From contig NC_057919.1 in the NCBI RefSeq assembly GCF_018873765.1, positions 59,123,484 to 59,187,483 of the forward strand: a stretch of 64,000 nucleotides of DNA, read 5' to 3'. The translations under genes were made by a program, and so were the position numbers. This DNA is from Telopea speciosissima. Lineage: Eukaryota > Streptophyta > Magnoliopsida > Proteales > Proteaceae. Positions 26,527 through 64,000 of the stretch are shown piece after piece. Position 1 is the first letter of the stretch. Each line of letters opens with the position of its first letter. The notes below the pieces were generated by a model. It worked only from the letters and a program-made list of their open reading frames with translations, was not told the DNA's origin and made no database searches.

Positions 26527-26562
26527 ACTATAGCGTAAAGGAGTGGAGAGCACGAACAGGAT

Positions 26563-26580: not shown

Positions 26581-26725
26581 GAAGTGTACGAACTCGTCAT
26601 CAATCTCATTTCTGAAACCTACAGAAGGAAAATTAAGCACGAAGAAAGAAAGGAAGAGAAGAAGAAGAAGAAGAAGAGAGGAAGAAGAAGGGAAGAGAAG
26701 AAAAGAAAGATTGAGAAGAGTGGAC

Positions 26726-27745
26726 ATGGAGCATCTACCATCACACGTCGATATACTGCCCAAGAGAATAATATTGGTGAGGCATGGAGAGAGCCAAGGC
26801 AACCTAGACGACACTGCCTACACCACCACCCCAGACAATCAGATCCCTCTCACCTCTCACGGCATCGACCAAGCCCGCTTCGCCGGCCAACGTATCCGCC
26901 ACCTGCTCTCCGACGACGGCCTCTCCCACAACTGGAAGGTTTACTTCTACGTATCACCCTACCGCCGTACTCGATCCACCCTTAGAGAGATCGGTAGGTC
27001 TTTTCCCAGGAACCGAATCCTCGGGGTCAGGGAGGAATGCAGGATCAGGGAACAAGATTTCGGCAATTTCCAGGTGGAGGAGCGGATGAAGGCCATAAAG
27101 CTAGCCCGTGAGCGATTCGGCCGCTTCTTCTTCCGATTCCCTGATGGCGAGTCCGCCGCCGATGTCTTCGACCGCCTTTCCAGTATGTCAACTACTCAAA
27201 CCATCTTCTTCTTCTTCTTCCTCTTCCCCTCTCGTTTTCTCTTAATTTCTGAGATTTGTACTTCCGCAGGTTTCATGGAGTCGCTGTGGAGGGACATAGA
27301 CATGAAGAGGCTTGATCACCATCACAAACGTGGTGATGAGACAAACCTCATCATCGTGTCGCACGGGCTGACCATGCGAGTGTTCCTGATGAAATGGTTC
27401 AAGTGGACGGTGGAGCAATTCGAGCACCTCAACAATCCGGGCAACTGTGAATTCCTGGTCATTCAATTGGGTTCAGGTGGAGATTACAGCCTTGCCATCC
27501 ATCATTCCGAGGAGGAGCTCCTCCACTTGGGACTTTCCCCCGAGATGATCGCCGACCAGAGATGGCGCGCCAGCGCCACTAAGGGGGACTGGAACGAGAA
27601 ACACTCTTGGTACCTCGATGGCTTCTTTGATCATCTACCTTCTTCCGATTCCTCCTCTTCCGACTCCGACGACAATAATAATAACAACAATGTTCATCAC
27701 GACCACCAGGGGGAAAAGGAAAACAACGCCCCTGTCAAATGCTAA
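26726..27745 (+). CDS. Phosphoglycerate mutase-like (histidine phosphatase superfamily) protein
   Basis: Two exons, 26726-27182 and 27270-27745, encode 310 residues. The 87-nt intron has donor GTATGT and acceptor CCGCAG and splits a serine codon; it happens to be open in frame, which would otherwise insert a phenylalanine-rich stretch. The N-terminal RHG motif that carries the phospho-accepting histidine is at residues 19-21 (IILVRHGESQGN). YVSPYRRTRSTLREI and REQDFGNFQ follow, and the second histidine is near residue 184 (IIVSHGLTMRVFLMKWF). The C-terminus is a Ser/Asp/Asn-rich tail. Length and motifs match the plant family of At3g05170/At1g08940. The substrate is not established and it is probably a phosphatase rather than a glycolytic mutase. 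The start was chosen because upstream in-frame codons are low-complexity leader. Cytosolic location is likely, as no targeting peptide is visible. Confidence 0.93.
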   Translation: MEHLPSHVDILPKRIILVRHGESQGNLDDTAYTTTPDNQIPLTSHGIDQARFAGQRIRHLLSDDGLSHNWKVYFYVSPYRRTRSTLREIGRSFPRNRILGVREECRIREQDFGNFQVEERMKAIKLARERFGRFFFRFPDGESAADVFDRLSSMSTTQTIFFFFFLFPSRFLLISEICTSAGFMESLWRDIDMKRLDHHHKRGDETNLIIVSHGLTMRVFLMKWFKWTVEQFEHLNNPGNCEFLVIQLGSGGDYSLAIHHSEEELLHLGLSPEMIADQRWRASATKGDWNEKHSWYLDGFFDHLPSSDSSSSDSDDNNNNNNVHHDHQGEKENNAPVKC

Positions 27746-28799: not shown

Positions 28800-31700
28800 T
28801 CATTCTGATGATGCTGGAACAAACTTGACTGAGATGCTGTTAACACAATGACGTTCGTCAGTTGGTGTAGGGAAACCCTCGCCTTTAAATACATGACCAA
28901 GGTGCCCACCACAAGCTGCACATGTAATTTCAATTCTCCTCCCATCTGGGTCAGCCTGAAAACATGTAACCACATATCACATTATATGTGAAGTAGTTGT
29001 TTTTTAAGGCTGTGTTTGGTCTGCATTCCTGGAAAAGATTCTGGGTCTAGAACGGATTTTAAAACCCAAATCTTCTCTATTTTCTCAAGTCAGAATGCAT
29101 TCTAAACCCAAAATCTATTCCGAGAATGCATACTATACACAGCCTAAGGTACTGAAGGGGATTTTGGGGTGGGGGGGGGGTGGGGGTGGGTGGGCGGGGA
29201 GAACCAATAAAATAGAAGAGCAAAGCTTACTGTACGATTTATGGCTCCAGGAAGACCCTCAAAGAAAGCCGGCCAGCCACAGCCAGAATCAAATTTTGTA
29301 GTGGATCTATAGAGGGGTGTCCCACAACCTGCGCAGTTATAGATCCCTTCACCAAAAAACTTGTCATATTCCCCAGTGCCTGGGAACCTGCATATCATCA
29401 AACTATTAGTATAGTTACAAGCACCAAACCACACTAAAGCCACAGATGAATTTGTCATGTCCGCCATAAATGAGCTGCATATTCTGTGAATCTTTATTAG
29501 CTATGTAGATTGTGATATCTGTAACAAGAACTCACTATTAAGTGAGATTGAATGACTTGGTTGATCAGTGAACCATTGGTTGATTAGTGAACCAGAGATA
29601 ACTTGGTTTGAGCTCTTAACCATATGCACATGGGTACATACTTATGGCCTTATTTTGTGGAACTGCTTGGGGACATACAACTAAATGGCCTCAGTTCAAG
29701 TTACGAAGCATATCAACTAGTATTATCTGGAAACCACATTATGGAAGGGACTGTTGTAACACCCTAAATATGACAAATACGCAAGGATCCTAAAACAATG
29801 TGATAGTGGCTGCTAAATCAGGCAATCGTGGTACCCAAGAGGGGGGGGGGGGGATGTTGAGGAATCATTGCAATGGTCAAAAAGGTTCATATATTCTGTT
29901 CCCCTTAGAGGGCGGGCCTCGGCGCAACAGTAAAGTTGCACATTGCGACCTAGTGGGCGTGGGTTGAATTGGGAAACAGCCTCCCCATGAAGCGGGAGTA
30001 AGGCTGCGTACATATCTGCCCCTCTCTCGAACCCGCAGTGGCAAGAGCCTCGTGCACTGGGTATCCTTCTATTTCTTTTCCCATTACCTACCCTAACATG
30101 GACCCATCTCTTTACAGTTACCTTTTTGACAACGATACAATTATAATAACATTTTGTATGATGAATTTTACCTAAAAGAAATGAGAGCAGCGAGAAGGAA
30201 AACACAAAGGCATGAAGAGAGAAATAAGATAATTTAGAATAACTCAAATCTGCTGCAACACAGAACACTGAGACACAAGTCCACAGTGTGTGTCTGGAAG
30301 ATGCAATATAAAGGGATTTGCTGATGTTGATCATGTTGGTAAATGAAATAATCCTTCAATTAGTTCAACAACAACAAAAACAAACTCCGCCTAACCAACT
30401 TAATGGTTAGTACCACTTTGCACATTCAATCAGTTCAATGGATAATAGATAATTTCCATCTGAGGTCAGGGCACCTACAACATAAACTTTCACTTTAATG
30501 CATGAGTCGATTATTTTTTCTCCAGTACTGCTGTTAAGCATGGAAGAATGACACCTTTATTGGAGTAATACTACTACAATAAGTCAAATACATACATGCA
30601 GAAACCTGGCTTCAGCAGATCCCACATCCATACTCAGATGCAGACCACTGCACAGTTTGGTTTGAGTGTACAATATAAATAGGGTTAGGAAAGACCAACT
30701 TCAACCTCAAAATACTGCTTAATGTTTGGCTCAGTTTGGGTAGGGTTGGCAGTTTGGTTTAGGTGGTTTCCCCCACTATTTCAACACCAAGAAGAGGGTA
30801 AAACTGCTAGAGAAGTAGCACATGACATTCTTGATAGCCATAATAATAGTTCATAGGGCAGAGACGACCGTTACTTTGGGCATCTCTAAAGAGTTCATTG
30901 TCGGTGATTGGCCCACTATGGTTAGTACCACTCTGCACCTTCACCACCCGAGGAGGAAACTGGTAGGGGAGCTCTTACTGGTTGTAAATTGTGGAATTAG
31001 GAACACAAGGAATACTGAGTTTTATGGGATCTCAATTCGCCTCAGTAGCAGATAACAACCTTGATAACCATATAGTAGCTCGCAGGGTTGCTGCTTTCTG
31101 GGGTGTCTTTAAATAGTTCATTGTAGGTGATTGGCCCATTATGGTAGTACTCAGTGGTCAGTACCACTCTTCATCACCTCCACAGATTGTCACTATGGAC
31201 AATATGAGAATCCTGGAGGGATTGAAAGAATGCTCATAGATAGTCTGGTCCAGTACTGCTGCCTTTCTAGGCTGATCATTGTTGGTCAATTTGTGCCAAA
31301 TGCCTGGCTGTCCAACTGGGACTTAGAATCATTGAGGAGATCAAGAGTAGTGTTGAGGGTGAATCCACTACTAGATAGTTGATATCATCCTTGAAAAATA
31401 TCTAATTAAAATTGCTACAAAGTTCTCCCAACTCTTTAGTTGATGGTTAAACAAAGAAACTCATAGCCAAGAAAGTAGTGGCTTTGAACCGTGTGTTCGG
31501 GTTCTCTTGTCCATTCTAATAAAATCATTTCATACTGATCAAAAGAAGAGGTTGATTAAGAGTTATCAGATTTGGGAAGCCCCAAGTAGATAATGAACTG
31601 GACTGACTCAAGTTGCAAGAGATTTGGTATTGGACCCACCTGATTGCGACCTTTTATGGAGTCCTTGGATCATTCAAATATGCTTTTCTGCTATTCAGGT

Positions 31701-40600: not shown

Positions 40601-41655
40601 AAAAGCAGTTGTATGGAAATAGCATTCATGAGATGAGTAAATATCCAAAATACAAACAGTAAAAGAAGCCAAAGACAAATCCTATACTCCTATCATGAAG
40701 TGATCATGGAGATTACCATATTGACAACCTCTTGGCTAGAGAGGAACTCGAATACCCCATCGCTAGCAATTACAAAGAACAAATGATTAGATGTGAGCTG
40801 AACAACTGAAACCTCAGGAGCAGCAATCACACCAATCTTCTCAGCTGTACTATCACCAACGCTCCTTGAAAATGCAGTGCCAGGATACATCCCATTCTGT
40901 ACCCAAAGTCTTGGGGGATCATTACCAGCACTCTCTTCATCCCCCCAGCTCTGAATATCAGGATCCTTGTAACCCTCCACCTGATCAACAGTTAGAACCC
41001 TCGCCCCACAAAGCTTCACCCTCTCATATTCATCTTTCCTGAATGGTGTCTGGTCACGAGAAAGGTCCTCCGCGACAACCCGATTTCCACTCTTGACAGC
41101 AATTACAGCCCTTGAATCACCCACATTTGCGACATAAAGGGTATCCCCACAAACAAGAACTGTAATTGCAGTGGTACCACTCATTGAATCGTCTATCTCA
41201 CTACTGTGAAGTTCGGAGTTCGTGGTTAGGACTGCAGAATTATATGCCTTTACAGGATCTTCCAACAATGCGGGATCCTCAGAGAGAATCTCTATCAGTC
41301 TATCCTTAACAAAGTTAGAACACTGGGTGCCAAACTGGCCATGACCATCGAAGACCCCAAAGAAATGGAGATCCGGGTTACCTTGGACTTGGGTTTTGAT
41401 GCAGAAACTATCTTGGTTTTCTTTCTCAGGGGAGTCTGGGTAGTAACCTCGTTGCGTGAGGACTGAGAACTCTAAATGGAAGTTGTGGGAAGGCACAGGA
41501 GCAAACTCTAAAGACCTCTCAGTGAGTGTGTTTCGATAATTCCCAAATACATGTAGGTTGTGGCTCTTGCGTATACCAGAATCTCGAAAATCTCGAATAT
41601 CCCCATCGGATGAAGATGGGTAGCGGCCACAGCACTTTCCGTGGACACAACCCAT
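37613..41655 (-). CDS. Protein phosphatase 2C, PP2C35-like
   Basis: Two exons (40717-41655 and 37613-37750) encode 358 residues ending [16 protein letters not shown]. It is a metal-dependent Ser/Thr phosphatase. Metal-binding motifs are visible: ENQDSF (about 80), VFDGHGQFG (101-109), [30 protein letters not shown] (near 300) and the final DD in RTDDITI. The N-terminus MGCVHGKCC has Gly2 and Cys3, expected for myristoylation and palmitoylation, so membrane attachment is likely. Length and sequence match, from memory, Arabidopsis At3g06270 (348 residues) and rice PP2C 35. The first exon's frame is open further upstream (to 41706), but MGC is the accepted start in this family. Intron 1 is 2966 nt. 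An optional third exon may exist at 36951-37136. Confidence 0.93.
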
Positions 41656-43200
41656 TTTGGAAGAAGAGGAAGAATATCCCAAAAGATCAAATTTCGGAAT
41701 AATCACTGTACGAGAAGGCCAACAAAAAGCACTAAACCCAGTAATGGTTTCAAGTTATGGTGGGAGCGGTAAAACCTGCTCTCCTCAAATGGGAATATTG
41801 CGTTTGAACTTTACTGAAAGTTCCTTTTCTTCTTACGAAGAACCCTTCTCCTTGAAGCAAACTTGGTTTAGCCCAAAATAAGGAAAAAAAGAAACTGAGA
41901 CTCAGAAGACAATCTGGGTTTTCAGACGACGATTGTAATCTGGTTTTTGTTTGGGACTTGAGAGAAAAGTTTTCTGCCGAAATTCATCAAAAGATTTCCA
42001 TCTGAAAAATTTTAAAAAAAAGTGCTAAAAAGGAAAACCAAAGAACCCTAAAGAAGAAAGAATCTGAGAAGACTTTCACTGATCCAGTGATAAGATTTTT
42101 CGCAGAGAGGGCAAGTTAAACCGCTTAAAGGTTTGTGCTTTTCCTGCACAAGATCATGACTAAAGAGCAGAATTTGGTGAAAATTCAAGAAAACAACAGG
42201 GACCTAAAAACAGCAACAACAGGTCGAAAAGGAACGGATGATGACGAAATGGGGGGTTTCTTTCAAGGGCAGACTCTGTTTAGGACTTTGGGTAGATGAA
42301 ATTGGGAGTGGGACACTCTACAGAAAACCCATGTTCCAAGAAATAAGACAAGATTTTTTATGAAGACCTAGCAAGCAAGCAGTGCAGTCCTCTCAGAAAT
42401 CAGAATGGTTTAGTCTGTGTCACTCATACTCTGATCCTTCTTGTGAGTCTCTTTTTCCTGATGAACACTGAAATGAAATGGGCTTTTCTTCGAGGGAGGT
42501 CTTCTTTCATATTTTATCCAAGTTGAAACATCAACGCCTCTCATAGTCTCTCATGACTCTCATCTCATTCCTTCCCAAGACATGTCCTTGTTGGGGAGTC
42601 TTCAGTTTCCACACAAATCTTCTTGTCACCACACACGTTGTCAAATACATTGTAACCATGGGTCCATGATTCTTACTATTTTTTTTTTTATATTATATAA
42701 AATTGAGGTGAATTATTTAATTTAAGAGAATTCTTTTTCCCTTAATTTAAATACTCATTAAATTAATAAAAGGAGTTCATTGGCCCAATGACACCCCCAT
42801 GGGCATGAAGACCTCAACTAGACCTTGTATTACAGCCCCTCATTGGGGTGTCATTTGCTCGATTTTGGTGTGAGAATGGGTGAGTTCAAAACCAATCCAA
42901 TAAGGTTGCATCAATTCGATTTCAGTTGAGTTTGGATTCGCTTTTTCTAATTGTTGTGTTATCGGTTTAGTATCAGGTTTAGTTTGACATGTACATATAT
43001 TCATAAGCATAAATATGAGAAAAATATGTTTGTTTTAATGAAATTTGAGCTGGCATCGGATTCTTATCGGATTATATTAGTTCGGGTTCGATTTCGATTC
43101 GATTTTCTAAGATTGGTTCGATGTTATTAGTTTCGGTGCAGTCTAGTTTGGGTTCGATTTCGCAAAATTCCAATCCAAATTCCGAAACCAATCACAAATG
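41656..43200. other. PP2C 5' region and intergenic repeat fragment
   Basis: 41656-42600 is probably PP2C leader and promoter on the - strand; I could not place the start site. At 42880-43200 there are degenerate motifs such as TCGGGTTCGATTTCGATTCG and GGTTCGATGTTATTAG, part of the dispersed CGGTTCGGTTT-type repeats of this genome. No second gene was recognised. Confidence 0.45.
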
Positions 43201-47959: not shown

Positions 47960-48075
47960 AGATTACTCAGTTTTTTACCGATGGATATGGATCATTTTGC
48001 CACCACGATGGTGTGCTCGTAGTTTTTTTTTTCCTCCCCTGCTGTTGGAGTGATCTTACTTCTGTCTACTTGCTA

Positions 48076-48945
48076 ATGGCTTCGAAGGCGCTGACGATCT
48101 CACCCTCCCCATCTACTGCTGGATCATCTTCCTTCCCCTCTTCCCATCAGGACCAGTTTTACCAGCAACCGATTGTTTCTGATGAGGAAAACTCTGATGA
48201 TGAAGATACTTTCACTATCGATGAAGAGTATGAGGCCCATCTCTCCCACAGTGAGACTCACTCTCTTGCAGGTTGGATTCTATCGGGAAGGAGATACAGA
48301 AGACAATCGGTTCCTGAGGCTCTGGTCTCAGCTTGGAATACTACTTCCCCAGTTTATGTTTCCCCTCTCAAACCACATACTTATCTTTTCAAGTTCGAGC
48401 ACCCCATGGACCTGTACAATGTCTTGAATGAAACTCCGTGGTCGGTCGCGGGAAACATTATTGTCCTGGAACATTGGAGAGCAGCCATGGACTGGACTTT
48501 TTCTTCTACAGATATGTGGGTTCAATATCATGAGATCCCTGAAGAGCTGCGAGATCATCAACTTGTATCTAAAATGGTTTAGAAAGTTGGTGCGGTTAAG
48601 AAACTTCTCTTTGTTAATGGAGTCCGTGGGGGGCAACGAGTGCAGTACTACAGAGCTCGAACCACGGTGGACATCACCAAGCCTCTGAAACAATCCTTAA
48701 AGTTGAAGCGTAGAAATGGGGTTACCCAGGCCATGGAGATATGATACAAGCACCTCCCTTTGTTCTGCTACTACTGTGGTCGGCTGGGCCATGATGAACA
48801 GCGGTGCTGCACCTTATTTGAAGAGGAAGAAATCCATCAAAGTGCACATCACTGCGACAAAAATGTGGCCTGTTCGCAGTTCCCTCGAAGACGCTTTCAG
48901 CCTCACCTTCGCTGCCCGGCCCCAGATGCTGTTTTGATTGAGTAG
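48076..48945 (+). pseudogene. LINE ORF1: DUF4283-like domain and CCHC zinc knuckle
   Basis: The frame from ATG 48076 has a Ser/Pro-rich and acidic N-terminus, then a DUF4283-like RNA-binding domain (LVSAWNTTSPVYVSPLKPH, FEHPMDLYNVLNETPWSVAG, VLEHW, WVQYHEIPEELR). A TAG at 48580 interrupts it, after which the same frame resumes (KLLFVNGVRGGQRVQYYRAR), and a second in-frame stop occurs near 48742. The zinc knuckle CYYCGRLGHDEQRC follows at about 48763-48804. ORF1 proteins bind the LINE RNA. This copy is dead. Confidence 0.85.
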
Positions 48946-49742
48946 GCTCTGGCGTTCCTGCCTCAGTCTGAAACTCATGCCCCTGACCATGGTGTTGCTC
49001 AATGGCGGCGACATCCTGCAAGCTCGGCGGCAAGCTCAGGCCAAGCGGCAAATCCGGGTGGTGTACCTATTACCCCTAATAATTTCCTGATAACCCCCTC
49101 CATTAATCCTGCCCATGACCCCCGTGTTTCCCCTATATCCACTTCCCATTTCCCTTCTATTATGGAAAACTGCCATATTGATCCTTCTTACGTTAATCAC
49201 CACTCCACCTACCATTCCATACCACCTCCCCTTACCATTTCCCCTTTAAATGTTCATCCACCAGCCCCCCTACCCGTATCTTCTTCTCCTATTTCCTTTA
49301 ACCCTCCCTCCATTACCGATAATCCAGGGAGTCACCTTCTTATGCTCCTTAAAAATCTCCCCTAGACCCCTGAGATATCACATGCTCTAACGGCCCTCTT
49401 ACCCCACTTATCCAGCTGTACTCTCTCAGACCCGCCATCTGTGACCGCAAATCACTCCCCTCTACCCCAAACCCACACCCGAAACCACCCTATTGACCAA
49501 GGGCTGCACCCTACTCCAAAGCCAGACTTTATTGACCCTCTTCATGGCGAGCAACACGTCATACCCCCACCCTCTCACGACTCAAATCACCCTGGCCGAC
49601 GAGTGCAGGCTTCTAAGCGGCTGCGGTTGTCTTCAGAGTACACAGGTACAAACGATGATATGGACTTGGCTGCTGATGACTCTTCGACTTTTTTAGGATT
49701 GAAACCCGTGGAGACTGGAGGGAACCAGCTCCATGGGGGGAT

Positions 49743-52700
49743 ATGAGGCTGCTCGGGTGGAACTGTCAAGGGTTGGGGAGACCTCGACAATTCGATACCT
49801 TAATCATCTCCTCCAAGTTGACAGACCTGAGGTGGTTTTTTTAATGGAGACTAAAAGCAATGGCAAGGTTTTTGAGCAAATCAGAAGATGTGGAAACTTT
49901 AGTGGCTTTTCAATTGTGGACCCGATTGGTGCATTGGGAGGGCTTGCTTTGTTATGGAAAGAGTCTGTAAATATGACAATTCTGTCATTTGATGTTAACT
50001 TGTTTGATGCTAAAGTAAAGATTATGGACTTTCCCCCCTTTTACCTAACGTGTGTTTATGGTGATCCGGTGAAACATAAAAGAAAACTTGTGTGGGATCG
50101 TATTGTTGCGGTAGGAAGTTAAAGGCAAGGCAATTGGTTATGCTATGGTGATTTTAATTCTTACCTCTCCTGGCACAAAAAGGCTGGTGGTTCCAAATCG
50201 TGCTCTAGGGATTCTGACATCTTTAGGGAATTCCTGGATGCATGTGATTTCCTTGATCTTGGGTGCCAAGAGCCAAAATTTACATGGAATAATAGAAGAA
50301 GCGGGCAGTCGAACATCAGGATTCAGGTGGATCGTGCACTTTGCAACCCTACCTGGAGACAGACTTTTGAAGATGCAACGGTCTTTGTTAAGCCAGCAGT
50401 TAATTCGGACCACAACCCTATTGTTATTGACACTGAGGGGGGTTCTTCCCATGGACAAAGACCATTTCGGTTGGAGTCCATGTGGATGCTCTATGAGGAT
50501 TGCAAGAACACTGCTGCCAAGACTTGGTCCATCTTTACTACTGGTTCCCCTGCTCACCGTGTTCTAAGAAAGACCAATCACTGCAGAAATGTCTTCAAGA
50601 AGTGGAACAGGGAGGTGTTTGGAAACATCTATGAAAATATTAAAAATCTAAAATCCCAGCTGGAGCATATTCAGGGCCTTCCCAAGTCTGTGTTCTCACA
50701 ACAGAAAGAGTCTGACGTTTCAAAGCTTCTTGAGGATGAGTTACAGAAAGAAGAGGAGATGTGGAGGCAGAAGTCACGGATTGATTGGATCAGGGGAGGC
50801 GACAAAAATACTTCTTTCTTCCATATTTCGACTGTTAGAAGAAGGCATCGAAATCGGATGCTAAAGCTGAAGCACCCTTCTGGCCAGTGGTCGTCTAGTA
50901 CATCAGAGGTATCTGACATTCTCTGTAATTATTTTCAGCATATTTACTCTTCAGAACCTGTGCATGATCATGCTTTGGAATTGGTTCTGGATTCAATTGA
51001 GCCTATTGTGACTAGTGAGATTAATGAGGCTCTGTGCAAAGACCCAACAATGGAAGATGTCAGGCTTGCACCTTTGCAATGGCTCCTCTTAAGTCACCTG
51101 GACCGGATGGCTTACCACCAATATTCTATCAAAAATACTGGGATATTGTGAGGGACGATTTATTCTCCCTTGTGTTGAATTTTTTTAGAACTGGTATTAT
51201 CCCATCAGAGTTAAATCGTACCTACATTTGCCTTATTCCAAAAGTGGGAGTTCCTGAGACGGCGGACCAATTTTGGCCCATTAGTCTATGCAATGTGGCC
51301 TTTAAAATCATCACAAAGCTTGTTGCAGACCGCTTGCATGGAGTGTTGAACCAAATCATTGCCCCAAATAAGTCAGCTTTCATTCCTGATCGCCTTATCT
51401 CTGATAATATTATGGTAGCCCATGAGATGTTCCATTATATTAAGAAACAGAAGCGAGGTAAACACAGTTTCCTAGCCCTTAAGCTTGACATGCGAAAGGC
51501 ATATGATAGGCTGGAGTGGAACTTCGTGGAAGGTATGCTCTTAAAGTTGGGCTTAGATCGGCTTTGGGTTGACGGGGTGATGTCTTATATTAAGACAGTC
51601 ACTTATAATCTCTTTATTAATGGCTGCATAAAGGGTAAAATCATCCCAACAAGGGGGATTAGACAGGGAGACCCAATCTCACCGGCTATTTTCATCTTAT
51701 GTTCTCAAGCTCTTACTGCTGTTATTAAGAGAGCTGAGGCTGTAGGGAATCTTCACGGTGTTAGGGTGAGGCATAGGGGGGTTGCCATCACGCATTTGCT
51801 TTTTGCTGACGACTGTTTACTCTTTTCTAGAGTTAATTTGCAGGAAGTGAACTCTCTTAAGGAGTGCTTAGATCTTCATTGTCAAGCGACGGGCCAGGCC
51901 ATTAATTTGCAAAAGTCTAGCCTCACTTTCAGTCCAAACACCCATGTTAAATTCAAAAGATGGTTTTCAAGGGTGCTAAAGGTGAAATATGGAGAAGGCC
52001 CATCGAAATATTTGGGATTGCCAACTGACTTTGGTAGCTCAAAGAAGACCATTTTCAATGAAGTGAAGGAGAAAACTATGAATAAATTATAGGGGTGGAA
52101 GGGCAGTTTACTTTCTCATGCTGGCAGGGAGGTCCTCTTGAAATCAGCTATAAGCCCCATGTTAAATTTTGCAGGATCCCACTTGAAGTTGCCTGTCTCA
52201 TTTCACAATGCCATCAAGAGGGCCTCCTCAAATTTCTATTGGGGTAATGCTGAAAGAAATAGAAGGATCCATTGGATTTCTTGGCCGAGATTATGCAAAC
52301 CAAAATCAGTTGGTGGGTTGGGCTTTAAAGATACAAGGCTACAGAATCGAGCTCTCTTAGCAAAGGTGGCTTGGCGTTTGTGGCCAACTCCAAATTCTTA
52401 CTGGGCTAGCTTTCTCAAGTCTATTTACTACCTTGCCACTGATTTCTTGCATGCAAGATTGGGTAATCAACCTTTGTGGGGTTGGAGAAGTATTCTGGAG
52501 GGGAGGGTGGTGCTTTTGGATGGTTTATTGTGGAAAATTGGTGATGGCCATAAGGTTGATATTTGGAAGGACAATTGGATCCCTTCGCTGCCCAACTATA
52601 AGGTGCAATCCCAAAGGCCTGTGGACTATGGGCTCACTTTTGTTGCTGACTTAATTGATCCAACTAGCCGCACGTGGAAGACTAGCCTCTTACAGCGCCT

Positions 52701-54839
52701 GTTCCAGCCTGCGGAGGTTAATGCTATTTTAAAGATTTCTCGTAGTTTCTTCGCTGAAGAGGATATTCAGGTCTGGGGTGCCTCCAAGGATGGGCGCTTC
52801 TCTATAAAGTCGGCATATTGGCTTCTTGCGAAGGAGGAGGAGGCCCAAAGGTCAAGGGCAGCAACATCTAGAGTTCGCCATTGGGAGATGATTCCAGAAA
52901 GGGTTTGGAGGAGAATCTGGAAGAATGATACTCTGCCGAAGATAAAAGCCTTTATTTGGAGAACTTGCAGTGAAGGACTCCCAACAGGCTCAGGTCTTCA
53001 TGCTCGCCAAATTCCCATTGATCCAGTGTGCCCACGCGGATTTGAGAAGGAACCGGGGATCATCTCGTAGGGGTGTCAATAATACCCGGCTGGCCCGAAC
53101 CCGCCCGAACCCGCCACGAGCCCCGCCCGAACCCGACACGATCCGCAGCGGCCGAAGGGCGGTCGTGGTTGAGATTTTGGCCTGACCGGGTCGGGTCGGG
53201 TCGGGCTCAAGGTGGCGGCCTAGCCGGCCACGGCCCCGACCGACCTGAATTCTTTATAAGCCTTTATATGGCTGAAAATACCAAAATACCCATAAGAGTG
53301 ATAAATAACCCTAATCCCATATGACCATATTCCCTTTTCGTTTTCACTTTTCACATTTTCAGTATTCCCGTTCTTCTTCTACATCCATATGGTTGATTGT
53401 GGCGAGTATTTTTATTCATGGATGATTGTAGCAGAGTATTTTTATGGATGTTTGTGGCAGTATTTATATGGATATTTGTGGTAGATTATTATGGATGATT
53501 GTGGTAGTATTTTTATGATGTTTATGGAAGTATTTATTTATAGATGTTTGTGAGAGTATTTTTATTTATGGATGTTTATGGCAATATTCATATTTATGGA
53601 TTTTTATAGATGTTTGTGAATTATTTTTATTTAAATTTACAAGTCCCTCTCTCCCTCTCTCTCCTTCCCATCTTATTCTTATTCTTTATAGAATTTTTCA
53701 GGTTTTTTTTAGATATATTCTTTGATATATATCAATCGGGTCAAGAGGGTTAAAACAGTGGTCAAGACGGGGTCAATCAGTGGCCGATTCGAGTCTCTGC
53801 CTTTAGACCCTATCGGGGTCGGGTCAGTCGGGGTTAGGGCTGAGAAAACCCTGGCAGTGGTCGGTCGGGTTGAGGGTTTCTTGGCCTGCCAGGGTTGGGT
53901 CAGGGTCAGGGTCAGGGTTTAGACCTCTAGGGTCAGGGTCAGGGTTTTGGCAGGCCCGGCCCAACCCGACCCATTGACACCCCTAATCATCTGTTGTTGG
54001 ACTGTCCTTTCGCAAGAGCGGTTTGGCATGGAAGTTCTCTTCATTATTCCCCTCCTACGGATGTAACTCCCACCATTGCTGGATGGTTAGGTAGCTGGGA
54101 TGTCGTGTTTCGACATGACAAAAGGTTGGCGTGTGAGGCACTGTCGAAGGTAGCTTTCTTGTGCTGGTACCTGTGGAGAGCTTGGAATGAGTTGTGCTTC
54201 AATTCTATCTGCTGGACTCCCTCAGAAGTCATCTCCATGGCAAACAAGGCTTATTTGGAATTTGCAGAGGTTGGGAAGCCTGAAGGTCTCTCGAATTCGT
54301 CTCAGGTTGCAGATAGAGACTCCCCCCCTCAAGTCTGGATTGTACCTCCAACAGGTATTACAAAGATAAACTACGATGCTGCTCTCCCGCAAGACAATGC
54401 AAAGGGTGGTCTGGGATTGGTTTTGCGAGATCATGCTGGTAATTAGAGAAAGTTTGTTTCCATTCCCATGTGTTTCAATTCAACTCTTTAAGGAGAACTG
54501 CTGGCTGTTCGTGCTGCTCTGCGGCTGGCTCTTGAGTTAGGTCTCAAGCAGGTTCAAGTTGAGTCGGATTGTAGAGAGGCTGTGAACTATATCTTGGATC
54601 ACTCGTGTATAGCCCCTATCGATTCAGCTGTGGTGCTTGGTGATATTTGGAAGCTCTCTACTTCCTTTTCTTCTATTTCTTTTCACTGTATTTCTAGGGC
54701 TATTAATGGTGTTGCCGATGCCCTAGCCAGGAAAGCCCTGTCATTGGTGTGTTTGATAGATTGGCCTCTTTCTACTCAGTGGCTTCATGAGCTCTGTTCT
54801 CGTGAAGCTGCTGCTTGTACACACCCCCTTTCTCAGTAA
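49743..54839 (+). pseudogene. LINE ORF2: endonuclease, reverse transcriptase, zf-RVT, RNase H
   Basis: ORF2 begins at ATG 49743 (MRLLGWNCQGLGRPR). The apurinic endonuclease part is in mixed frames: VVFLMETKSN at about 49830, FSIVDPIGALGGLALLWKES, and TWNNRR-like text near 50290. RT has SPGPDGLPPIFYQKYW near 51110, CLIPKVGVPE, SAFIPDRLISDNI, KLDMRKAYDRLEW, RQGDPISPAIFI and catalytic FADDCLLF near 51800. Next is KSAYWLLAKEE, IKAFIWRTCSEGLP, and the zf-RVT motif split by the hAT element (CPRG left, HLLLDC right at about 53985-54005). RNase H is at about 54350-54760 (INYDAAL, GGLGLVLRDHAGN, VESDCREAV, NGVADALARKALSL). Breaks include a frame change near 49790, TAG at 52090-52092 and a stop near 54445. 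Confidence 0.88.
53068..53985. mobile_element. hAT-like non-autonomous element inside the LINE
   Basis: The ends TAGGGGTGTCAAT and ATTGACACCCCTA are perfect 13-bp inverted repeats. The target ATCATCTG follows the right end (53986-53993) and ATCATCTC-G precedes the left end, giving an 8-bp duplication with an extra or changed base. Removing the insert restores the LINE zinc-motif text. Subterminal zones are crowded with GGGTCGGGTC and GGGTCAGGGTCAGGG, typical of hAT transposase-binding regions. No transposase frame was seen. Confidence 0.9.
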
Positions 54840-54862
54840 ATTTCCCTCTTAGAAGGAAAAAG

Positions 54863-55736: not shown

Positions 55737-56470
55737 GGTTCGTAATCTTGGTATCGGTATCAGGTCGGTGGATCGGATCAAGATTAACCAAACTCGTGAC
55801 AAATATGACGCTGTTGCCCTTGTTTTTTGTAAAATAAAAATCCATTTTTTTTCTTTTTTATCCCTATTCGTACAGGTAGATCGGATTGGTCTCGATCGAT
55901 ACCATTCCGATCCGGCCAAAGTCGGCCTATCCGTGCTCCTTAGACCTCTTTTTGTCCGTGATACATGCACTCCTCTTTTTTATGCTTAGTCTTATATCTA
56001 AGCTTTAGTGCGTATGCTTAAAAGTTGAAAAGAACATCTCTTTTTATACTTTATAGTATCACGATGCTACCATGCATGAGGTCCCAGGTGTTTATCATGG
56101 TTTGAGAATCAGAATTAGATTGGAATTGACTTGATCTGATTTTGATCCGGTCGATTCGTATTGGATTTCTAGGGTTCATGTTGATTCGTATTGGATGATT
56201 TTGATCCCATTGTTGATTCCATTTAAAGCTTAGCATTGTTCATAATCTCGGATCGGTCGATATTGGTCAGACCGAATTGATATCGGTCAAGAATGTATCC
56301 TGACTGATTCAAAGGTACGTCCAAAGTGTAAAATGTTAATTAAAATTGATTTTTGTTAAAAAGCAGGGGTAAATCTGTTCAATCTAGCCGATCTGAATAG
56401 GTTTCGGCCTTGACCAATATTTGAGACCGATCTCATGATGAAAAACCATGATGCTTGTTGGTTGATTTTG
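55737..56470. repeat. Dispersed CGATACC/GATCGGT repeats
   Basis: Segments such as CATGGTTCGTAATCTTGGTA, TCGGTATCAGGTCGG, GATCGGTCGATATTGGTC and the final AAAAACCATGATGC resemble the nested repeat at 46508-46745. Ends beginning CATGGTT and closing AACCATG suggest MITEs of one family. Boundaries are unclear. Confidence 0.5.
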
Positions 56471-56798
56471 GGATGTCAATTTGGAATTGGAATTGAAACC
56501 GACTGTTTAAACCAAATCAAATCGAAAAAGTGGTTCGATTTTGATTTTGGAAAATGGATTTTATTTCGATTCAGTTCAATTTTAAAAGTTAAAAGTGGCG
56601 GTTTGAATTGAATCAAATTGAACCAACTAAAATGGATTCAAACTGAATAAAATATATTTGAATCCAAAAACCAAATATGAATCTAATGAAATCAAATAAG
56701 TTGATAGAAGTTTCAAAGCCTAATTAGACCAAATAAGAATCGAATCAAATGGTATCAGTTTGATTTTGATTTTACCTTTTTAAATTCATTTACTTTTT

Positions 56799-57183
56799 AT
56801 AAATTACATGTCACCCCTTGGTCTTTAAACGAAACTCAAATCACCCTTTGGTTTTTTAAAATATTCATCTATCTCCCTCTATAGTAATATTGGTGTTAGT
56901 TAGCTGTTAGTTATTGGTGTAAAAGGACTATTTTACCCTTGTATTAAAACATTAGAATTAAATGTACAATACAAAGGTAAAATCGTAAATCAACACTGGT
57001 CAAGGGTAGTTTAAGAATTTAAATTTATTTAACTGGCTGACATCATCACTTAACAACATAAAACTAACGGTAGGGACTAATTTGTCATATTGGGGTCTAA
57101 TATGGGGGGTGATTTAAGTATTTTCACAAATCAGGGGGTGATTTGAGTTTCATTTAAAAATTAGGGGGTGTCATGTAATTTAT
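56799..57183. mobile_element. Long-TIR MITE, family with 58454-58810, copy 1
   Basis: The ends ATAAATTACATGTCACCCCT and AGGGGGTGTCATGTAATTTAT are inverted, and pairing continues through ACGAAACTCAAATCACCC and GGGTGATTTGAGTTTCAT and then into the centre (TAACACCAATA-type against TATTGGTGTAA-type). About 385 bp long and non-coding. The terminal sequence is shared with the larger element at 59099. Confidence 0.82.
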
Positions 57184-57202
57184 CCATTTATATTTAATGT
57201 AT

Positions 57203-58316
57203 TAGGGGTGCAAATTTGGCCCTGTCGGCCCTGAGCCCGAACAGGGCTTGGGCTTAAGATTTCTGGGCCTGAGGGCGGGTGAGGGCCAGAAATTCATGGC
57301 CCTGAGTCAGGGTCGGGTCGGTTCCTGGTTGAGACCTCGGGTTCAGCCCGACCCTGATTTTGACCCTACTTTGGCCCTTTAGTTAGCTTTTGAATTTTAA
57401 ATTACCCATTATAGGATAAAATACTGCTCCCGCTTACAGCTTGTCTTCAACCTATTTACTTAATTACCCTTAAATTACATGTATTGTTCCTAAAATACCC
57501 AAACCCTAGTCGCTAAACCCCAACAATATCCCAATCTAACCCTAAAAATGTACCAACCCCTTTTATATTCTCATTTTCCCTGTTGTTGTCGTCTCCACGC
57601 CTCCACACCTTCTCAATCGAACCCTTGACGTTGACGACTTGACGGAGCTGTTGCTCGCCGCTATTGCAATTTCTGCAACCCAATACTTTTGACTTCCTTC
57701 TAGCTCTCATTTGAATTGAACCTCTGCGACTATACCTGTCGACCCTCTCTAATTTAACTGGTAAGTCTTTCTCTCCCTTCGTTCTACATTCTTATCTATT
57801 TTTGCATTTTTAATTAATGTATTTGACTTGTTTTCTTTGTTTCCACTTTCCAGGCTGCATATTGTTGGAAATCTGGCGTATTATTCATGACTTTAGAATT
57901 TTAGAAGCTTTGCAGAGAGAGAAACATAGAACATTGGCACCGGCCAGGGACCCCAAACCATTCATGTGATTTCTCCAAGAGATGTTCCATTTTATTTTCA
58001 TGGAATCTGCCCCAGATAGAGCATTCTTAATTTCTCAAACCCCTTTCTATTTTTTCATTCAACAAAGGAGAAAAAAGAAGCATCGTAATTCAGGGTCAAG
58101 GTCAGGGTCAGGGCCAACCTGACCCAGCCCTGCCTAATCAGGGCTAATTAGGGCAGGCTTGGGCTGGGCTATCTAGGCCCGTCAGGGTCAGGGTTAGGGT
58201 CAGGGTTTTAAGATCCTGAGTCAGGGTCAGGACGGGTTTGGGCCTAGATAAGGGGAATCAGGGTTGGGCTAGGGTTTCAAAAAGTCCGACCCAACCCGAC
58301 CCTGTTGCAGCCCTAA
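57203..58316. mobile_element. hAT-like element with GGGTCAGGG subterminal repeats
   Basis: The ends TAGGGGTGCAA and TTGCAGCCCTA are inverted with one mismatch, flanked by AATGTAT (57196-57202 and 58317-58323). Both subterminal zones carry TCAGGGTCGGGTCGG and GGGTCAGGGTCAGGG, as in 53068-53985. The centre (57530-57870) has a leader-like stretch with a good donor (CTGGTAAGTC near 57770) and acceptor (TTTCCAGGC near 57854), possibly the 5' UTR intron of the parental transposase gene. No transposase protein was recognised. Confidence 0.75.
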
Positions 58317-58453
58317 ATGTATCCTGAATCAAACCGAAATCAAACCGAAAAAATCAAAACCGGACTGATTGGCACCCATAGACAGCTGGTGATCCTTTGA
58401 TGCATTAAAGAGATGGAAGTGAGATAAGGTAAAGATATACGGATTAATTAAGA

Positions 58454-58810
58454 GTAAATTACACGTCACCCCCTGGTTTTCAAACGAAACTCAAATCACT
58501 CCTTGGTTTTTGAAAATATTCAAATCACCCCCTTTATTAGACCCCAATATGACAAATTAGTCCCTATCGTTAGTTTTATGCCGTTAAATGATGATGTCAA
58601 CAAGTTAAATAAATTTAAATTCTTAAACTACCCTTGACATCCAAACAAAAATTTAATTCTAATGTTTTAGTACAAAGGTAAAATAGTTCTTTCACACCAA
58701 TAATTAATAGCAACTAACACTGTTATTGTAGAGGGGTCAGATGAGTATTTTAAAAAATCAAGGGATGATTTGAGTTTCGTTTGAAAATCAGGGGGTGACA
58801 TGAAATTTAC
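58454..58810. mobile_element. Long-TIR MITE, copy 2
   Basis: GTAAATTACACGTCACCCCC at one end and GGGGGTGACATGAAATTTAC at the other are inverted. Inner pairs ACGAAACTCAAATCAC and GTGATTTGAGTTTCGT-like text match the element at 56799-57183, to which it is about 80-85% similar by eye, and which lies in inverse orientation. Confidence 0.82.
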
Positions 58811-59098
58811 CCATTAATACCCATTAATTAATTCGACCTGCCGTTAAAAATTGTTATTAATTAGTGTAATCAAACAATGGTCGTACAGTTTAAAGCTGTG
58901 CTTTATTGTTGTCTTCCACAATAATTTTACAATAAAAAATCCATTGGAATAAGTGAAACACGGATGCACGTGTGGTTCCAAATCTTTCTTCTCTTTTGTT
59001 GTTTGGGCAGTGACCCACCTAACAAGGAAGAATAATGGGAGCTTTTAGGGCTTTCTTCCCACCTAAAAGAAAAAAGCTTTGCTGGTATATAGTTATTC

Positions 59099-60662
59099 GG
59101 TAAATTACATTGTCACCCCCTGAGATTTGTATTAAATACAGAGCGATCCCTTATGTTTCTAAATTATACAGCCACACCCCTTGAGTGGATGGTAAATGGA
59201 CGGTGTTAAATAATATATTTTAAATACCAATTTTGCCCTCTTCTAATATCCTATTAATATCCAATGGGAAATTCCAACAAAACCCCTTTTACCCTTATGT
59301 ACAAAACCCTCTTTCTTCTCCAGAAACCACTGTCCTCTCCGGCGATCTGCAAGGGAGGAACTATCGACTTTCATTTTACATCTTAAACAAAAACCCTTCT
59401 TATTCAACATTCTTCTTCAACCTTCATCTTCAAATTCCGACAGAGGCATCTCGGCCAGGAAGGGGGAGGGTGGGGGTTCAGAGAAAATTATTGATTTTTG
59501 CAGAACAAAAGTTCAATCATGTAAACAATGGGAGGGTTCGGTTCAACGTATCCATTCACGTAATAGAAAGCTTTCCACTTTATGATTAACTTTTGCCATA
59601 ACTCTAGGGCACGCAAGCTCACTATCACCACCCCTGAAACTAGCCCAAACATAGACGGCAACCACATCAATAAATCCAATTGTGTCACAATATCCAAAGG
59701 CATCATTTGAACAAGGGATGATTGCATCTCAATCGGTCAAGGCCCAATCAATACCACCATTAATGAGGTTACTAGCGGACCAGGACATGGAATTAGGTAT
59801 TTTTTCCCTTGATCCCTAATCCTAATTTTCAAGAGAAACCCAGAAAATGTGTGGCTTTAACCAATTCAATGTTAACATTGTGGGTTTTATGTTTAAACAA
59901 CAAAGTTGGTAGCCTTGGCAAGTATCCAGATGAAAAGGATGTGAATGGAGTTGCAGTGACAAGCTGCACATTATCGAACACAGAAAATGGTGTTAGTTAA
60001 GCAATCTCCTAAACCTAAGAGTCTCTGTTTACAGAATTTTCCAGATCCGACCAAAACCTTCACCAGGTCATACTCGACTCACAAGATCTCAAGCATTGAT
60101 GAAGAGAAGTGGGAGGTGCAAGCGTTTAAAGATTGACGATTACGATTCCTAAGCGTTTAAAGAGAGTGGATAGCGAAACCTCTCTGTGTGTTTGTTCTTC
60201 AAGAGTTGAGCTCTAGCACTTATGCATAACCCAGGGTTTAATTTCATCTTTTTTGTTCAAGCAAATTCAAGCCTGGAGGGGAGATGGGGTGTGGTGGTGT
60301 TAGGTTGCAGTAGGTAGGGGCAGGTGGGTTGGGTTGCAGCAGGTGGTGGGGCCAGTGGGGTTGCAGAGAAGAAGAAAAAGAAGAAGAAGGAGAAGAAGAA
60401 GAAGGGGGGATGGTGATGGGTCCCATTAACTCTATTTCAAGGATAAAATTAGAAAAAGGAAAAAATTGAGCAATTAGGGGTATATTAGTCATTTTAAGTC
60501 ATGAATTATCAGCACCATACCAATTAACGGGAATGATATAACGGAGTGGGGCTGTCTGTAATAACTAACCAAACCTCAGGGGGTGTGGCTGTATAATTTA
60601 GAAACACAGGGGGTCGCTCTATATTTACTACAAACCTCAGGGGGTGGCAGTGTAATTTTTCC
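59099..60662. mobile_element. TIR element carrying a polygalacturonase fragment
   Basis: The two ends are inverted for about 90 bp: GGTAAATTACATTGTCACCC, then AGAGCGATCCC and CTAAATTATACAGCCACACC on the left, matching GGTGTGGCTGTATAATTTAG, GGGTCGCTCT and GGGTGGCAGTGTAATTTTTCC on the right. The outer sequence is shared with the MITEs at 56799 and 58454. Between the ends, about 59567-59995 is a GH28 gene fragment with a remnant intron. The right end abuts the LINE at 60663, so a target duplication cannot be confirmed. The layout is that of a Pack-type (gene-capturing) element, most likely MULE-like. Confidence 0.78.
59567..59995 (+). pseudogene. Captured polygalacturonase (GH28) fragment
   Basis: The + strand reads KAFHFMINFCHN, then KLTITTPETSPNIDGNHINK, VTISKGII, DDCISIGQG, INTTINEV and GPGHGI, then GT at 59797, about 110 nt of intron-like DNA, and GSLGKYPDEKDVNGV plus CTLSNTENGV. 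These are the consecutive GH28 blocks NTDG (here NIDG, 59648-59659), DDC (59717-59725) and GHG (59783-59791), in the correct order and spacing. The final block (RIKTW) is missing and the start of the enzyme is absent. A stop lies just before DDC and the junction around the intron is out of frame. Polygalacturonases cut pectin in the cell wall; this fragment cannot encode one. Retention of an intron argues for DNA capture, not retrocopying. Confidence 0.85.
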
Positions 60663-63600
60663 TTTTTTTGTTTGGTAAAGAGGAATTTTATTGATGAGAG
60701 GAGTCTTTACAAGCAGTCTTTACAAGTAGTAGTATCTGCAGCACAAAGTTGCAAAAGCCACTGAGAGGTTGTTGACCACAGAATCGGAGATTCAACTGAT
60801 AGGGCTGCCCTAGCCAAAGAATCCGCTACAGTGTTGGAGGATCTTGGAACAAAAGCAAGACTACATGAAACAAAAGTCTTTTGCAAACAATTAATATCAT
60901 AGCAAATGCTATAAATTTCCTTCTCCACCTGAGAACCTTCACCTAGCTGAATAATCAACTTTTGACAATCCAATTCAACCATGACATGGGTAAAGCCAAG
61001 TGTTGCCGCATGTAGGAGTCCAACCCGAATAGCGTAGGCTTCTCTAATGAAAGCTGAATCACACGGAATACCACAAGAGTTTGCTGAGATAGGTGCTAGC
61101 TCCAGATTCATCTCTCATGATAATACCAATGCCTCTATGTTTTGTCTTTCCATTCCACATAGCATCACAATTTACTTTAATAACATTCAGTGGAGGAGGA
61201 GTCCAAGTAGATCTTGTAATCATTTGCAGAGTAGAAGAGTCATCCTTAATTTGTGAGAGAGTCTGACCATTGGCTGATGTAGCTTCCCAAAATTCTATAT
61301 GTGCCTTCTCTGCAATGAGAATAACATCTGTTGGAGACCATAAATGTTTTTTGAAAATAAGGTCATTTCGTGCTCTCCATATATACCAAAATATGAAAGT
61401 TGCCAAAGAAAATCTATTTTGGGCCAGTTTTTTATCCTCCTGAAAAATGATATCCCAACTTTTAAGCCAATCTTTTAAGCATGGGTTCTCAACTTGTGGC
61501 GTTAAATGCGCCAATGAAGATCCAAACCACACAGCCCTAGAGAAAGGGCATGAAAGGAAAATATGCTCCACCGTTTCAAGAGGATAGCCACAACGTAAAC
61601 AAGACGGGTCTATAGGGATTTGTTTCTTGAGAAGGCCTTCACCTGTTGCAATTCCATCAGCACAACTCTTCGAAAGGAACATTTTAATCTTTGGAAGAGC
61701 CTGAGCATTCTATATGCGTTTCCAACAGTAATCATCCATTACTTGATTATTTTTTGTATGTATGGAAGAGGATGGCTTATTTTGAGAGACTGTAGCCCTG
61801 TTATTTGTAAGGATATGATACATCGATCGTACAGAAAAAATACCTGATTTGGAGCCGCCCCAGGTCAATTTATCCTCCTGTGGGTAAAGATTGAGATGAA
61901 TCTTGAGAATCTCTTTTATATCTGCAAGTAGACAGAAAGCATTTAGAAGATTCATTTTCCAAGTCCTTGTGTGATGATCAATAAGCTCAGAGACTTTCTC
62001 CAAGGGACAATCATTTGGTCTACTGGACCGAATTTTAAAATTCCTTGAAGTAGGGATCCAGTTATCTTTCCATATAGAGATGTTTTGTCCAGTACCTAAA
62101 ATCCACAAAAGTCCAAGAGAAAGACATTTTCTACCTTCCAATATACTTCTCCATCCTTAGGATGGTTGGTGTCCAATCTTTGCCTGCATAAAATCAACAT
62201 TTGGAAAATAGATATTTTTCATTAATCTAGCCCATGGTGAATCAGGATAAGACCATAGTCGCCATGCTGTTTTGGCCAGAAGAGCTTGACTATGGAGTTG
62301 TGGGTCTCTAAATCCAAGGCCCCCTTTTTGTTTGGACTTGTAGAGTCTATCTCAAGAAATCCAATGAATTTTATGAGTCTCAGAAGAGTCATCCCAGAAA
62401 AAATCTGAAGTCGCTTTTTTAATATCATCCAACACAGAATGAGGCATTTTAAAATGTGGCCCTGCAAAATTTGTCATTGGAAGAACCAATGCTTTTATAC
62501 GTACCTCCTTGCCAGCTGTAGAGAGAAGAGATTTCTTCCAACTTTGTAAATTTGAGAGTGTTCTTTCTTTAATATTCTGAAAAAGCAATTTTTAGACATG
62601 CCAAAATCAATTGGTAAGCCCAAATATTTAGAAGGACCTTCGCCATAGGGAATTTTCAAAACTCTAGAAAACCATCTCTTGAATTTATGATGAGTATTTG
62701 GGCTAAAAGTGATACGGAATTTTTTCAAATTTATTTGCTGGCCAGAAGCGGTACAATATAGATCTAGATAGGACTTCCATGCTAATATGTCTTTAATATG
62801 TGCTCTTCCAAATAATAAGCAGTCATCTGCAAATAATAGGTGAGAAATTGGATTGCCCCGCTTTTTAATTCGAATTCCCTAAATTTCACCATTAGCTGCT
62901 ACCTTATTAATAATGGCTGAAAGTGCTTGAGCACAAATAATAAAAATGGCCGGGGAGAGAGGGTCTCCCTGTCGGATACCTCTAGATGGAGATATTAGGC
63001 CACATTCTGAGCCATTAACCAACAAACTATATGAGACAGAGCTAATGCATGACATAACAAGATTAACCCAAATTGCAGAAAATCCCAGTGCGAGAAGCAT
63101 CTTTTCAATAAAAATTCAGTTGATTTTGTCATAAACTTTTCGCATATCTAATTTGATGGCCGTAATTTGAGAATGATAGTTGCTGGTTCTATGTTTAATA
63201 TAATGAAATAATTTATGTGCAATAAGAATGTTATCAGAAATATACCTGTCAGGGATAAATGTTGACTGAGAATGATCAATTACTGATTCCAGAACTTTTT
63301 TGAGATGCAAGGCGATCAGTTTTATTATGATCTTCACCATCACCGAGCATAAATTGATAGGGCAGAATTGATCTGGAGAATTTGCCTCCTTGGATTTAGG
63401 TATGAGACATATGAAAGTACGATTCAAAGCTTTGGAAAGATTCCCATGAATAAAAAAATCTTTCACAAAAACAAAAATTTCCTTGAACTCCTCTTCAAGG
63501 AAATCCCAATATTTTTGAAAACTTTTTGGTGGAAAGCCATCAATACCTGGAGATTTGAGTGGGGCCATAGAGAATAATGCAGCTTTCACTTCCTCCATGT

Positions 63601-64000
63601 CTAGACTCTTAGAGAGACCAACATTCACCTCATCAGTAATGATAGGTTGAATCCCTTGAGTGACCTCCATAATAGCCTCTACATTGGTAGGATCAACTTT
63701 ATATAGATCTTTGAAATACTTGCATAAAAGATTTTGAACTTCACCTTCAGAAGAGGTCCACCGTCCATCTGGATATTTCAATCTTAGAATTTTATTATGA
63801 TGGCGGTGTTTAAGAGTCATCATATGGAAAATTTTTGGGTTTTGATCTCCTTCTTTAAGCAAATAAATTCTAGATTTTTGTTTCCAGAATAATTCATTGT
63901 TCTGCAATTCTCTCTCCAATGTCTTAATGATTTCATCTTCTTTGGATGGGGAAAAATTAGGCTGAGATTGTAAAGCAGTCAACTCCTCAGTTAATTGCTG
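60663..64000 (-). mobile_element. LINE, ORF2 3' part, runs off the right edge
   Basis: The - strand carries most of a LINE ORF2 whose endonuclease lies beyond the window. From right to left: linker and RT start (63116-63982: FWKQKSRIYLLKEGDQN, MAPLKSPGIDGFPPKSF, TFICLIPKSKEAN, STFIPDRYISDNILIAHKL, IKLDMRKVYDK), RGIRQGDPLSPAIF (62879-63100), FADDC near 62820-62835, WFSRVLKIPYGEGPSKYLGL (62495-62728), the thumb-like part (62222-62588), IWKDNWIPTSRNF (61710-62141), zf-RVT (CLRC, HIFLSC) and FIFWYIWRARNDLIF (61059-61682), and RNase H to TGA near 60707. The C-terminus ends with LARAALSVE. The 3' UTR ends in CAAACAAAAAAA at 60663-60675. There are at least six frame changes or stops. It is related to, but distinct from, the + strand LINE at 47960-54862. 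Confidence 0.9.

Follow-up and report, generated by a model that had tools for sequence, protein, structure and literature searches.

The window analysed here, a 64,000-nucleotide stretch of Telopea DNA, contains at 59098-60662 what is probably a Pack-type transposon, non-autonomous and now decayed, that seems to have captured a genomic fragment of a GH28 polygalacturonase gene as DNA; MULE is its likeliest superfamily. This element is referred to below as the Pack element, and its parts, together with the LINE that adjoins it, are as follows.

59098-60662, about 1.56 kb, + strand: whole element, a non-autonomous TIR element with a captured GH28 fragment, recognised from its arms and its GH28 content
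59098-59185, + strand: left terminal inverted repeat
59191-59566, about 380 nt, no strand: left filler, without recognisable homology
59567-59796 (59567-59794 by alignment), + strand: GH28 block A (KAFHF...GPGHGI, with an in-frame TGA), corresponding to PF00295 positions 113-188 of 324 and to ADPG2 194-265
59797-59903, about 107 nt, + strand: putative retained intron, with a GT start and an end deduced from the reading frame
about 59904-59997, + strand: GH28 block B (VGSLGKYPDEKDVNGVAVTSCTLSNTENGV), corresponding to PF00295 positions 190-218 of 324 and ending at AG/TTAAGC
60000-60569, about 570 nt, no strand: right filler, with a GA-rich tract inside, without recognisable homology
60575-60662, - strand: right terminal inverted repeat
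60663-64000, - strand: L1-type LINE running beyond the window end, with RVT_1, RVT_3 and zf-RVT profiles, AATAAA and an A-rich tail

Inverted arms and the enclosed GH28 fragment

The aligned arms of the Pack element (59102-59185 and 60575-60658) are 84 nt long and complementary at 75 of 84 positions (89%). Since their local alignment score is 123 and none of 300 shuffles that preserve dinucleotides scored above 26 (arm-to-arm blastn E 3e-26), chance is excluded as the source of the inverted arms. The original prediction had given the element inverted ends of about 90 bp; its coordinates proved accurate to a few bases, and the ends are confirmed as these 84-nt arms. The outer motif of the left arm, TAAATTACATTGTCACCCCCTG, lies at 59101-59122, and the outermost three bases of the element were placed, with due reserve, by register with a neighbouring MITE (M2) and with a Mu element of Hieracium, both of which are described below. 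The arms differ at 9 of 84 positions (Jukes-Cantor 0.116), which presumably corresponds to an age of 4 to 29 million years, a range set by the assumed rates and given no weight as evidence. No second copy of the Pack element was found by blastn elsewhere within the 64-kb window, and neither an autonomous partner nor a donor gene was seen.

Translation in all frames yields KAFHFMINFCHNSRARKLTITTPETSPNIDG...RDDCISIG...GPGHGI in block A and VGSLGKYPDEKDVNGVAVTSCTLSNTENGV from 59905 in block B. The motifs NIDG, DDC and GPGHG, followed by the GSLGKYPDEKDVNGV block, thus occur inside the arms in the expected order on the + strand, just as had been read from the sequence originally. When searched apart, both blocks exceed the PF00295 gathering cut-off of 22.9 bits, block A with 56.6 bits (E 2.9e-15, 66 residues from HNSR onward) and block B with 24.5 bits (E 1.7e-5), and a longer stretch of block A, starting at profile position 113, reached E 1.9e-16 in a six-frame Pfam scan. 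Jointly, the blocks span about positions 113-218 of the 324 in PF00295, close to a third of the domain. The best-matching solved structures are plant enzymes, ADPG2 being the first of them (3.8e-20 with a bridged query, 7.3e-15 with block A alone).

GH28 sequence was also searched for beyond the arms. Pfam detected none outside them in the six frames of 56500-64000, with stops read as X and E up to 1. A tblastn search of the whole window with both blocks and two plant polygalacturonase stretches returned 16 rows, six of which are the blocks themselves, the remaining ten having E values between 1.3 and 9.9. The Pfam searches covered the window from 56.5 kb onward plus nine ORFs elsewhere, and the tblastn queries were confined to the part of GH28 present in the fragment. 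GH28 text extending past the arms had been named in advance as a finding that would refute capture, and over these ranges capture is not refuted. As in Pack-TYPE elements generally, the paired terminal inverted repeats of one element enclose a host gene fragment, and this fragment is confined inside the arms (Pfam over 56500-64000, tblastn over the window). The element also lacks a transposase of its own: no transposase profile emerged from the six-frame scan of 56500-64000 (E up to 1), in which the only profiles were those of GH28 and the RT-related ones of the LINE.

An older GH28 pseudogene fragment could in principle have been bracketed by chance, through two opposite insertions of related short elements and with no capture at all. 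MITEs with related ends are dense in this region, two of them lying within 2.3 kb upstream, and a target-site duplication around the whole element was not seen, as such an origin would have it. However, each arm consists of one outward-facing end, some 84-90 nt long, and has no second end of its own, where two MITEs would leave four ends, and a search for the end motif (up to 5 substitutions) in 59099-60662 found the two outer ends, one inner periodic copy per arm and nothing more. We therefore regard chance bracketing as improbable and retain capture by a single element as the preferred reading.

The filler of no recognised origin totals about 950 nt. For the left filler, neither the translations of two + strand ORFs, which span most of it (to E=1), nor the six-frame scan gave a Pfam match, and blastn against the window gave one short match of 40 nt. 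For the right filler, four translated pieces covering part of it were without Pfam match to E=1, as was the six-frame scan, one translated piece had no PDB match up to E=10, and the blastn matches within the window are confined to the GA-rich tract. The idea that the right filler represents a second captured coding gene was dropped on these Pfam and, for the one piece, PDB results. A 31-nt unit also occurs in the right filler as a direct repeat of two copies, 74% alike, at 60120-60181.

The intron-like stretch and the probable route of capture

The stretch between GPGHGI of block A and VGSLG of block B opens AG/GTATTT at 59797 and has a GC content of 0.32, against 0.43 and 0.42 in the flanking GH28 blocks. 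Profile positions 188 and 190 border the gap, about 107 nt being present where the GH28 family has a single residue; in the alignment with ADPG2 this residue is the S of GHGI-S-IGSLG. The stretch looks like a retained phase-2 intron, and its position may be a conserved intron site in plant polygalacturonase genes; the available portions of PMC5133928 and PMC4495986 give exon counts but no intron position. Block A is immediately preceded by AG at 59565-59566 and is likely to be one whole exon. This AG and the AG at the end of block B could be former exon borders, AG/TTAAGC possibly being a decayed donor site, in which case the capture would have taken in two complete exons with their intervening intron.

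At the conserved place, the junction that keeps the frame (59903/59904) carries AA instead of the expected AG. Provided that the split-Ser phase is right, the terminal AG of the intron would have decayed to AA. Use of the following AG (exon from 59906) would put the exon out of frame and yields GISW followed by a stop, while a later one (exon from 59913) keeps the frame as GPGHGISLGKYPDEK, minus three residues. Ten AG sites, with exon starts ranging from 59834 to 59957, were tried as acceptors, and two of them continue in the GSLG frame, namely those giving exons from 59844, which retains part of the intron, and from 59913. All ten spliced products are interrupted by the TGA within block A. 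The GT-bounded intron remnant of the original prediction is thus upheld at its GT start, but its 3' end is less clean than had been supposed. Given the in-frame TGA, the captured piece is a pseudogene, and this fragment, which holds one third of the domain, does not constitute a functional gene for the enzyme.

Since the intron appears to have been retained, the source would have been DNA and not mRNA, and gap filling by template switching is considered the likely route. Animal Pack-TIR elements likewise carry filler DNA between the ends of one element, and in the excerpts of PMC8277862 this captured filler is explained by gap repair with template switching; the Telopea element differs from them in its plant host. 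The fragment might instead be a retrocopy, or the remnant of a full duplicated gene, that was invaded by the element afterwards, and its decay does resemble that of an old pseudogene. An mRNA copy is argued against by the intron-like stretch at the junction, unless this is an unrelated insertion, and a remnant gene by the other two thirds of GH28, which Pfam did not find in the flanks (56500-64000), so that either origin is very improbable.

Under the preferred reading, that of DNA-level capture, the space between the arms would have been filled with a genomic polygalacturonase copy comprising two exons, the intron between them and, it may be, some of the adjoining intron sequence on either side; the probable mechanism is template switching while a gap in the element was being repaired. 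TIR elements that are non-autonomous depend for their movement on a transposase encoded elsewhere. Such an enzyme, acting in trans, would have bound the ends and moved the Pack element, or could have moved it, and a repeat of about 30 nt found in the ends may serve as a binding array. Later, the element would have mutated and the L1-type LINE would have landed at its right border.

The 3' end of this LINE has the minus-strand sequence ATCAATAAAATTCCTCTTTACCAAACAAAAAAAGG/AAAAATTACACTGCC, in which the LINE gives way to the element at GG or close to it. Its AATAAA signal and A-rich, apparent poly(A), tail abut the right end of the Pack element, and the region 60.7-64.0 kb contains, on the same strand, its RT, zf-RVT and RNase-H-like parts. 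No target-site duplication of 3 or 7-11 nt is readable around the Pack element. The 9-nt left flank is ATAGTTATT, and the best agreement between 9-mer flanks is 5/9 within 5 nt (P 0.76), or 6/9 when the right side slides to 14 nt (P 0.57). If the LINE inserted second, it would have separated the right target duplication from the element, and this copy would now lie beyond 64000. The opposite order would leave a duplication of the left flank in the tail of the LINE; since none is readable there, arrival of the LINE after the Pack element is favoured.

Outer ends, neighbouring MITEs and superfamily

Two MITEs lie upstream of the Pack element.

56799-57183, in opposite orientation to M2: MITE M1
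58454-58810, in opposite orientation to M1: MITE M2, with the tip GAGTAAATTACA, identical to the tip of the Hieracium Mu element

M1 and M2, being 81% identical over 383 nt, are one family as judged from that alignment. We compared their ends with those of the Pack element in eight combinations. Each of the eight scores, which range from 25 to 40, exceeds its shuffle mean (about 15-17), although the score of 25 for the M1 left end against the Pack element right end is below its shuffle maximum of 26, and that of 27 for the M2 right end against the same end equals its maximum. Six combinations align over 21-27 nt (for example 21/23 and 20/22), and the other two give 30/37 and 51/69. The same end sequence had been ascribed to the MITEs and to the Pack element, and this holds for the outer 22 bp or so and for little further inward. 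The usual family criterion is 80% identity over most of the ends. With just 21-27 nt aligned in six of the eight comparisons, the ends fall short of this, and the proposal of one family comprising both the MITEs and the gene-carrying element is not sustained.

What the Pack element and the MITEs have in common is the outer end motif and an internal periodicity of about 30 nt, which is clear in four of the six ends. Tandem Repeats Finder reports a period of 31 nt at 60570-60645, in the right arm of the Pack element, and one of 29 nt at 57105-57170. In a test of lags 28-32, the best identity observed was equalled by none of 5000 mononucleotide shuffles for the right ends of M1 and of the Pack element, by 7 for the left end of M2, by 24 for the left end of the Pack element and by 153 for the left end of M1; for the right end of M2, which is without clear periodicity, 534 shuffles reached it. 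It is conceivable, if doubtful, that such ends define a widespread plant MULE-type group, in which arrays of two to three units of about 30 nt stand behind a G-NG-TAAATTACA tip and one transposase, reading tip and array, co-mobilises MITEs and gene carriers that are alike only in the outermost unit. The Pack element could be used to test whether one transposase serves both MITEs and Pack elements via a short repeated end unit.

According to Table 5 of PMC10485273, the Hieracium PAR promoter contains a 1,233-bp non-autonomous MITE-like element whose target-site duplication led its authors to assign it to the Mu superfamily, and its printed ends start GAGTAAATTACA. The left end of the Pack element shares GTAAATTACA with it at bases 3-12, in the same register, a score reached by 17 and 18 of 500 shuffles. 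The right end agrees at bases 5-12 with one printed end (109/500), the best match of the other lying elsewhere (66/500), and as scored here neither match is significant. The left end of M2 has all of bases 1-12, GAGTAAATTACA, with the strict score found in 3 and 1 of 500 shuffles, while its right end agrees there at 9/10 for one printed end (236/500), the best match of the other again lying elsewhere (26/500). The M1 ends have bases 4-12 in common with the Hieracium element (41 to 70 of 500). Since these shuffles ignore register, the equal distance from the tip adds weight to the match.

The MULE target-site duplication is 9 bp long. Around M2, with TAAATTAC as anchor, the exact 9-nt repeat ATTAATTAA stands on both sides, an agreement of 9/9 that 0 of 3000 mononucleotide shuffles reached; its right copy is offset 10 nt outward, behind an apparent short local duplication, and at the strict place the flanks agree at 6/9 (P 0.17). 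The M1 flanks agree at 7/9 (P 0.12), with a best length of 11, not 9 (9/11, P 0.02). Several lengths and offsets were tried in these comparisons, and as support for a MULE the flank repeats of both MITEs are suggestive only. Long terminal inverted repeats, a MULE feature, are present in the Pack element, with 84 nt at 89%, a length that we take to be short for a MULE. Long arms separate most MULEs from other DNA transposons (PMC3310237, in part). From the outer ends, the M2 flanks and the arm length, MULE is the likeliest superfamily for the Pack element.

A Pack-type element of another TIR superfamily, such as hAT or PIF/Harbinger (8-bp and 3-bp duplications, respectively), is rather unlikely. 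The duplication is unreadable at the Pack element itself, the 9-nt repeat of M2 contains exact 8-nt repeats, and a transposase was not found in the six frames of 56500-64000, all of which such an assignment would accommodate. But long arms are typical of most MULEs (excerpts of PMC3310237), the outer bases match those of an element put in Mu by its duplication (PMC10485273, in part), and the longest exact flank repeat of M2 is 9 nt. The core of the original prediction, namely that a TIR element captured a piece of a genomic GH28 gene, stands as the best reading, with MULE membership likely but no duplication readable at the element.

The ends had been thought possibly new, a suggestion weakened by the Hieracium Mu element and its matching outer bases in the available part of PMC10485273. 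Among the matches listed in open-licence PMC papers, it is the sole one on plants by title for one set of end strings, while those for two further sets are, by title, biomedical or not on plant transposons, which does not establish absence. In the excerpts concerned, a 9-mer from the ends occurs also inside a TIR-like end in Trichomonas that shows no likeness otherwise, and two more occurrences are primers. Scans of viral and genome contigs for the end motif gave 0 matches; plants are generally absent from these, so that the result has no bearing on plants.

Known gene-carrying elements and other features of the window

The excerpted texts of PMC8903248, PMC13317346 and PMC3310237 amply document captures of this type, as had been stated for MULEs at the outset. 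Over 3000 Pack-MULEs are present in rice (PMC8903248, PMC13317346, the latter citing Jiang et al. 2004 on Pack-MULEs), and like the Pack element they are described there as non-autonomous, with long inverted arms, a host gene fragment and no transposase. The Pack element differs in that no target-site duplication is readable, in that its superfamily is assigned from outer-end similarity and a neighbour, and in having no clear GC-rich cargo. Rice and maize Pack-MULEs prefer GC-rich sequence, and GC is less variable in dicots (PMC3310237, in part); this preference is not seen here, as the blocks (0.43 in block A, 0.42 in block B) are scarcely above the whole window (0.41). The Hieracium Mu element shares with the Pack element GTAAATTACA at bases 3-12, the non-autonomous state, a similar length and imperfect long inverted ends. 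However, its printed ends differ past base 12, it belongs to a different plant, and the available part of PMC10485273 does not mention a captured gene. Repetition within the ends is also common to MULEs with tandem TIRs, but these double whole long TIRs (excerpts of PMC3310237), whereas here a single short TIR contains two to three copies of a unit of about 30 nt.

Among the matches listed in open-licence PMC papers, none reports by its title or the start of its abstract the capture of a polygalacturonase by a Pack-MULE. The packFinder program discards singletons (PMC8903248, in part). If the host genome shows several copies, the Pack element would add to the cases in which a transposon has shuffled a cell-wall gene of a plant, and antisense transcripts or small RNAs from it might in principle act on the donor gene. 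In maize, siRNA effects on donor genes have been reported for captured sequences (PMC13317346, in part), and effects of this type are possible for the donor of the Pack element. A host function for this copy is unlikely, and in annotation a single broken copy must not be labelled as a polygalacturonase gene.

The window contains several other repeats which, with the host genes named below, mark it by content as probable plant DNA. Between M1 and M2, at 57204-58316, lies an element with GGCCC/CCCTGA-rich ends (AGGGGTGCAAATTTGGCCCTGTCGGCCC ... TTGCAGCCCTA), whose flanks AATGTATT and AATGTATC agree by eye at 7/8, which suggests an 8-bp hAT-type duplication; its ends align locally over just 17 nt, pointing to a TIR that is short or decayed. 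A possible outer element at 56470-58385, whose ends resemble GGGATGTCAAT and GGGTGCCAAT and which shows CGGTTTTGATTTT-like text, is a guess, its ends aligning over only 16 nt; it may harbour M1 and also the hAT-like element as nested insertions. L1-type LINE copies or pieces occupy 48000-54850 (+), 24074-25219 (-), 16665-17696 (-) and 60663-64000 (-). RT-related profiles were found at 24077-25219 and 60.7-64.0 kb, the other LINE calls coming from the reading of ORFs; the ORF at 50123-51148, in the first of these regions, has no Pfam match up to 0.001. Remains of an LTR retrotransposon, probably Gypsy, are found at 10456-15821 (-), with gag at 14751-15821 and RT and RNase H at 12001-13086. A tandem array at 9563-10026 consists of 7.7 copies of a 60-nt unit and carries a repetitive ORF that is open in both directions. 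Finally, likely host genes encode a member of the histidine phosphatase superfamily (26534-27742, +), a SelR protein of the methionine sulfoxide reductase B type (29147-29500, -) and a protein phosphatase 2C (PP2C; 40696-41754, -).
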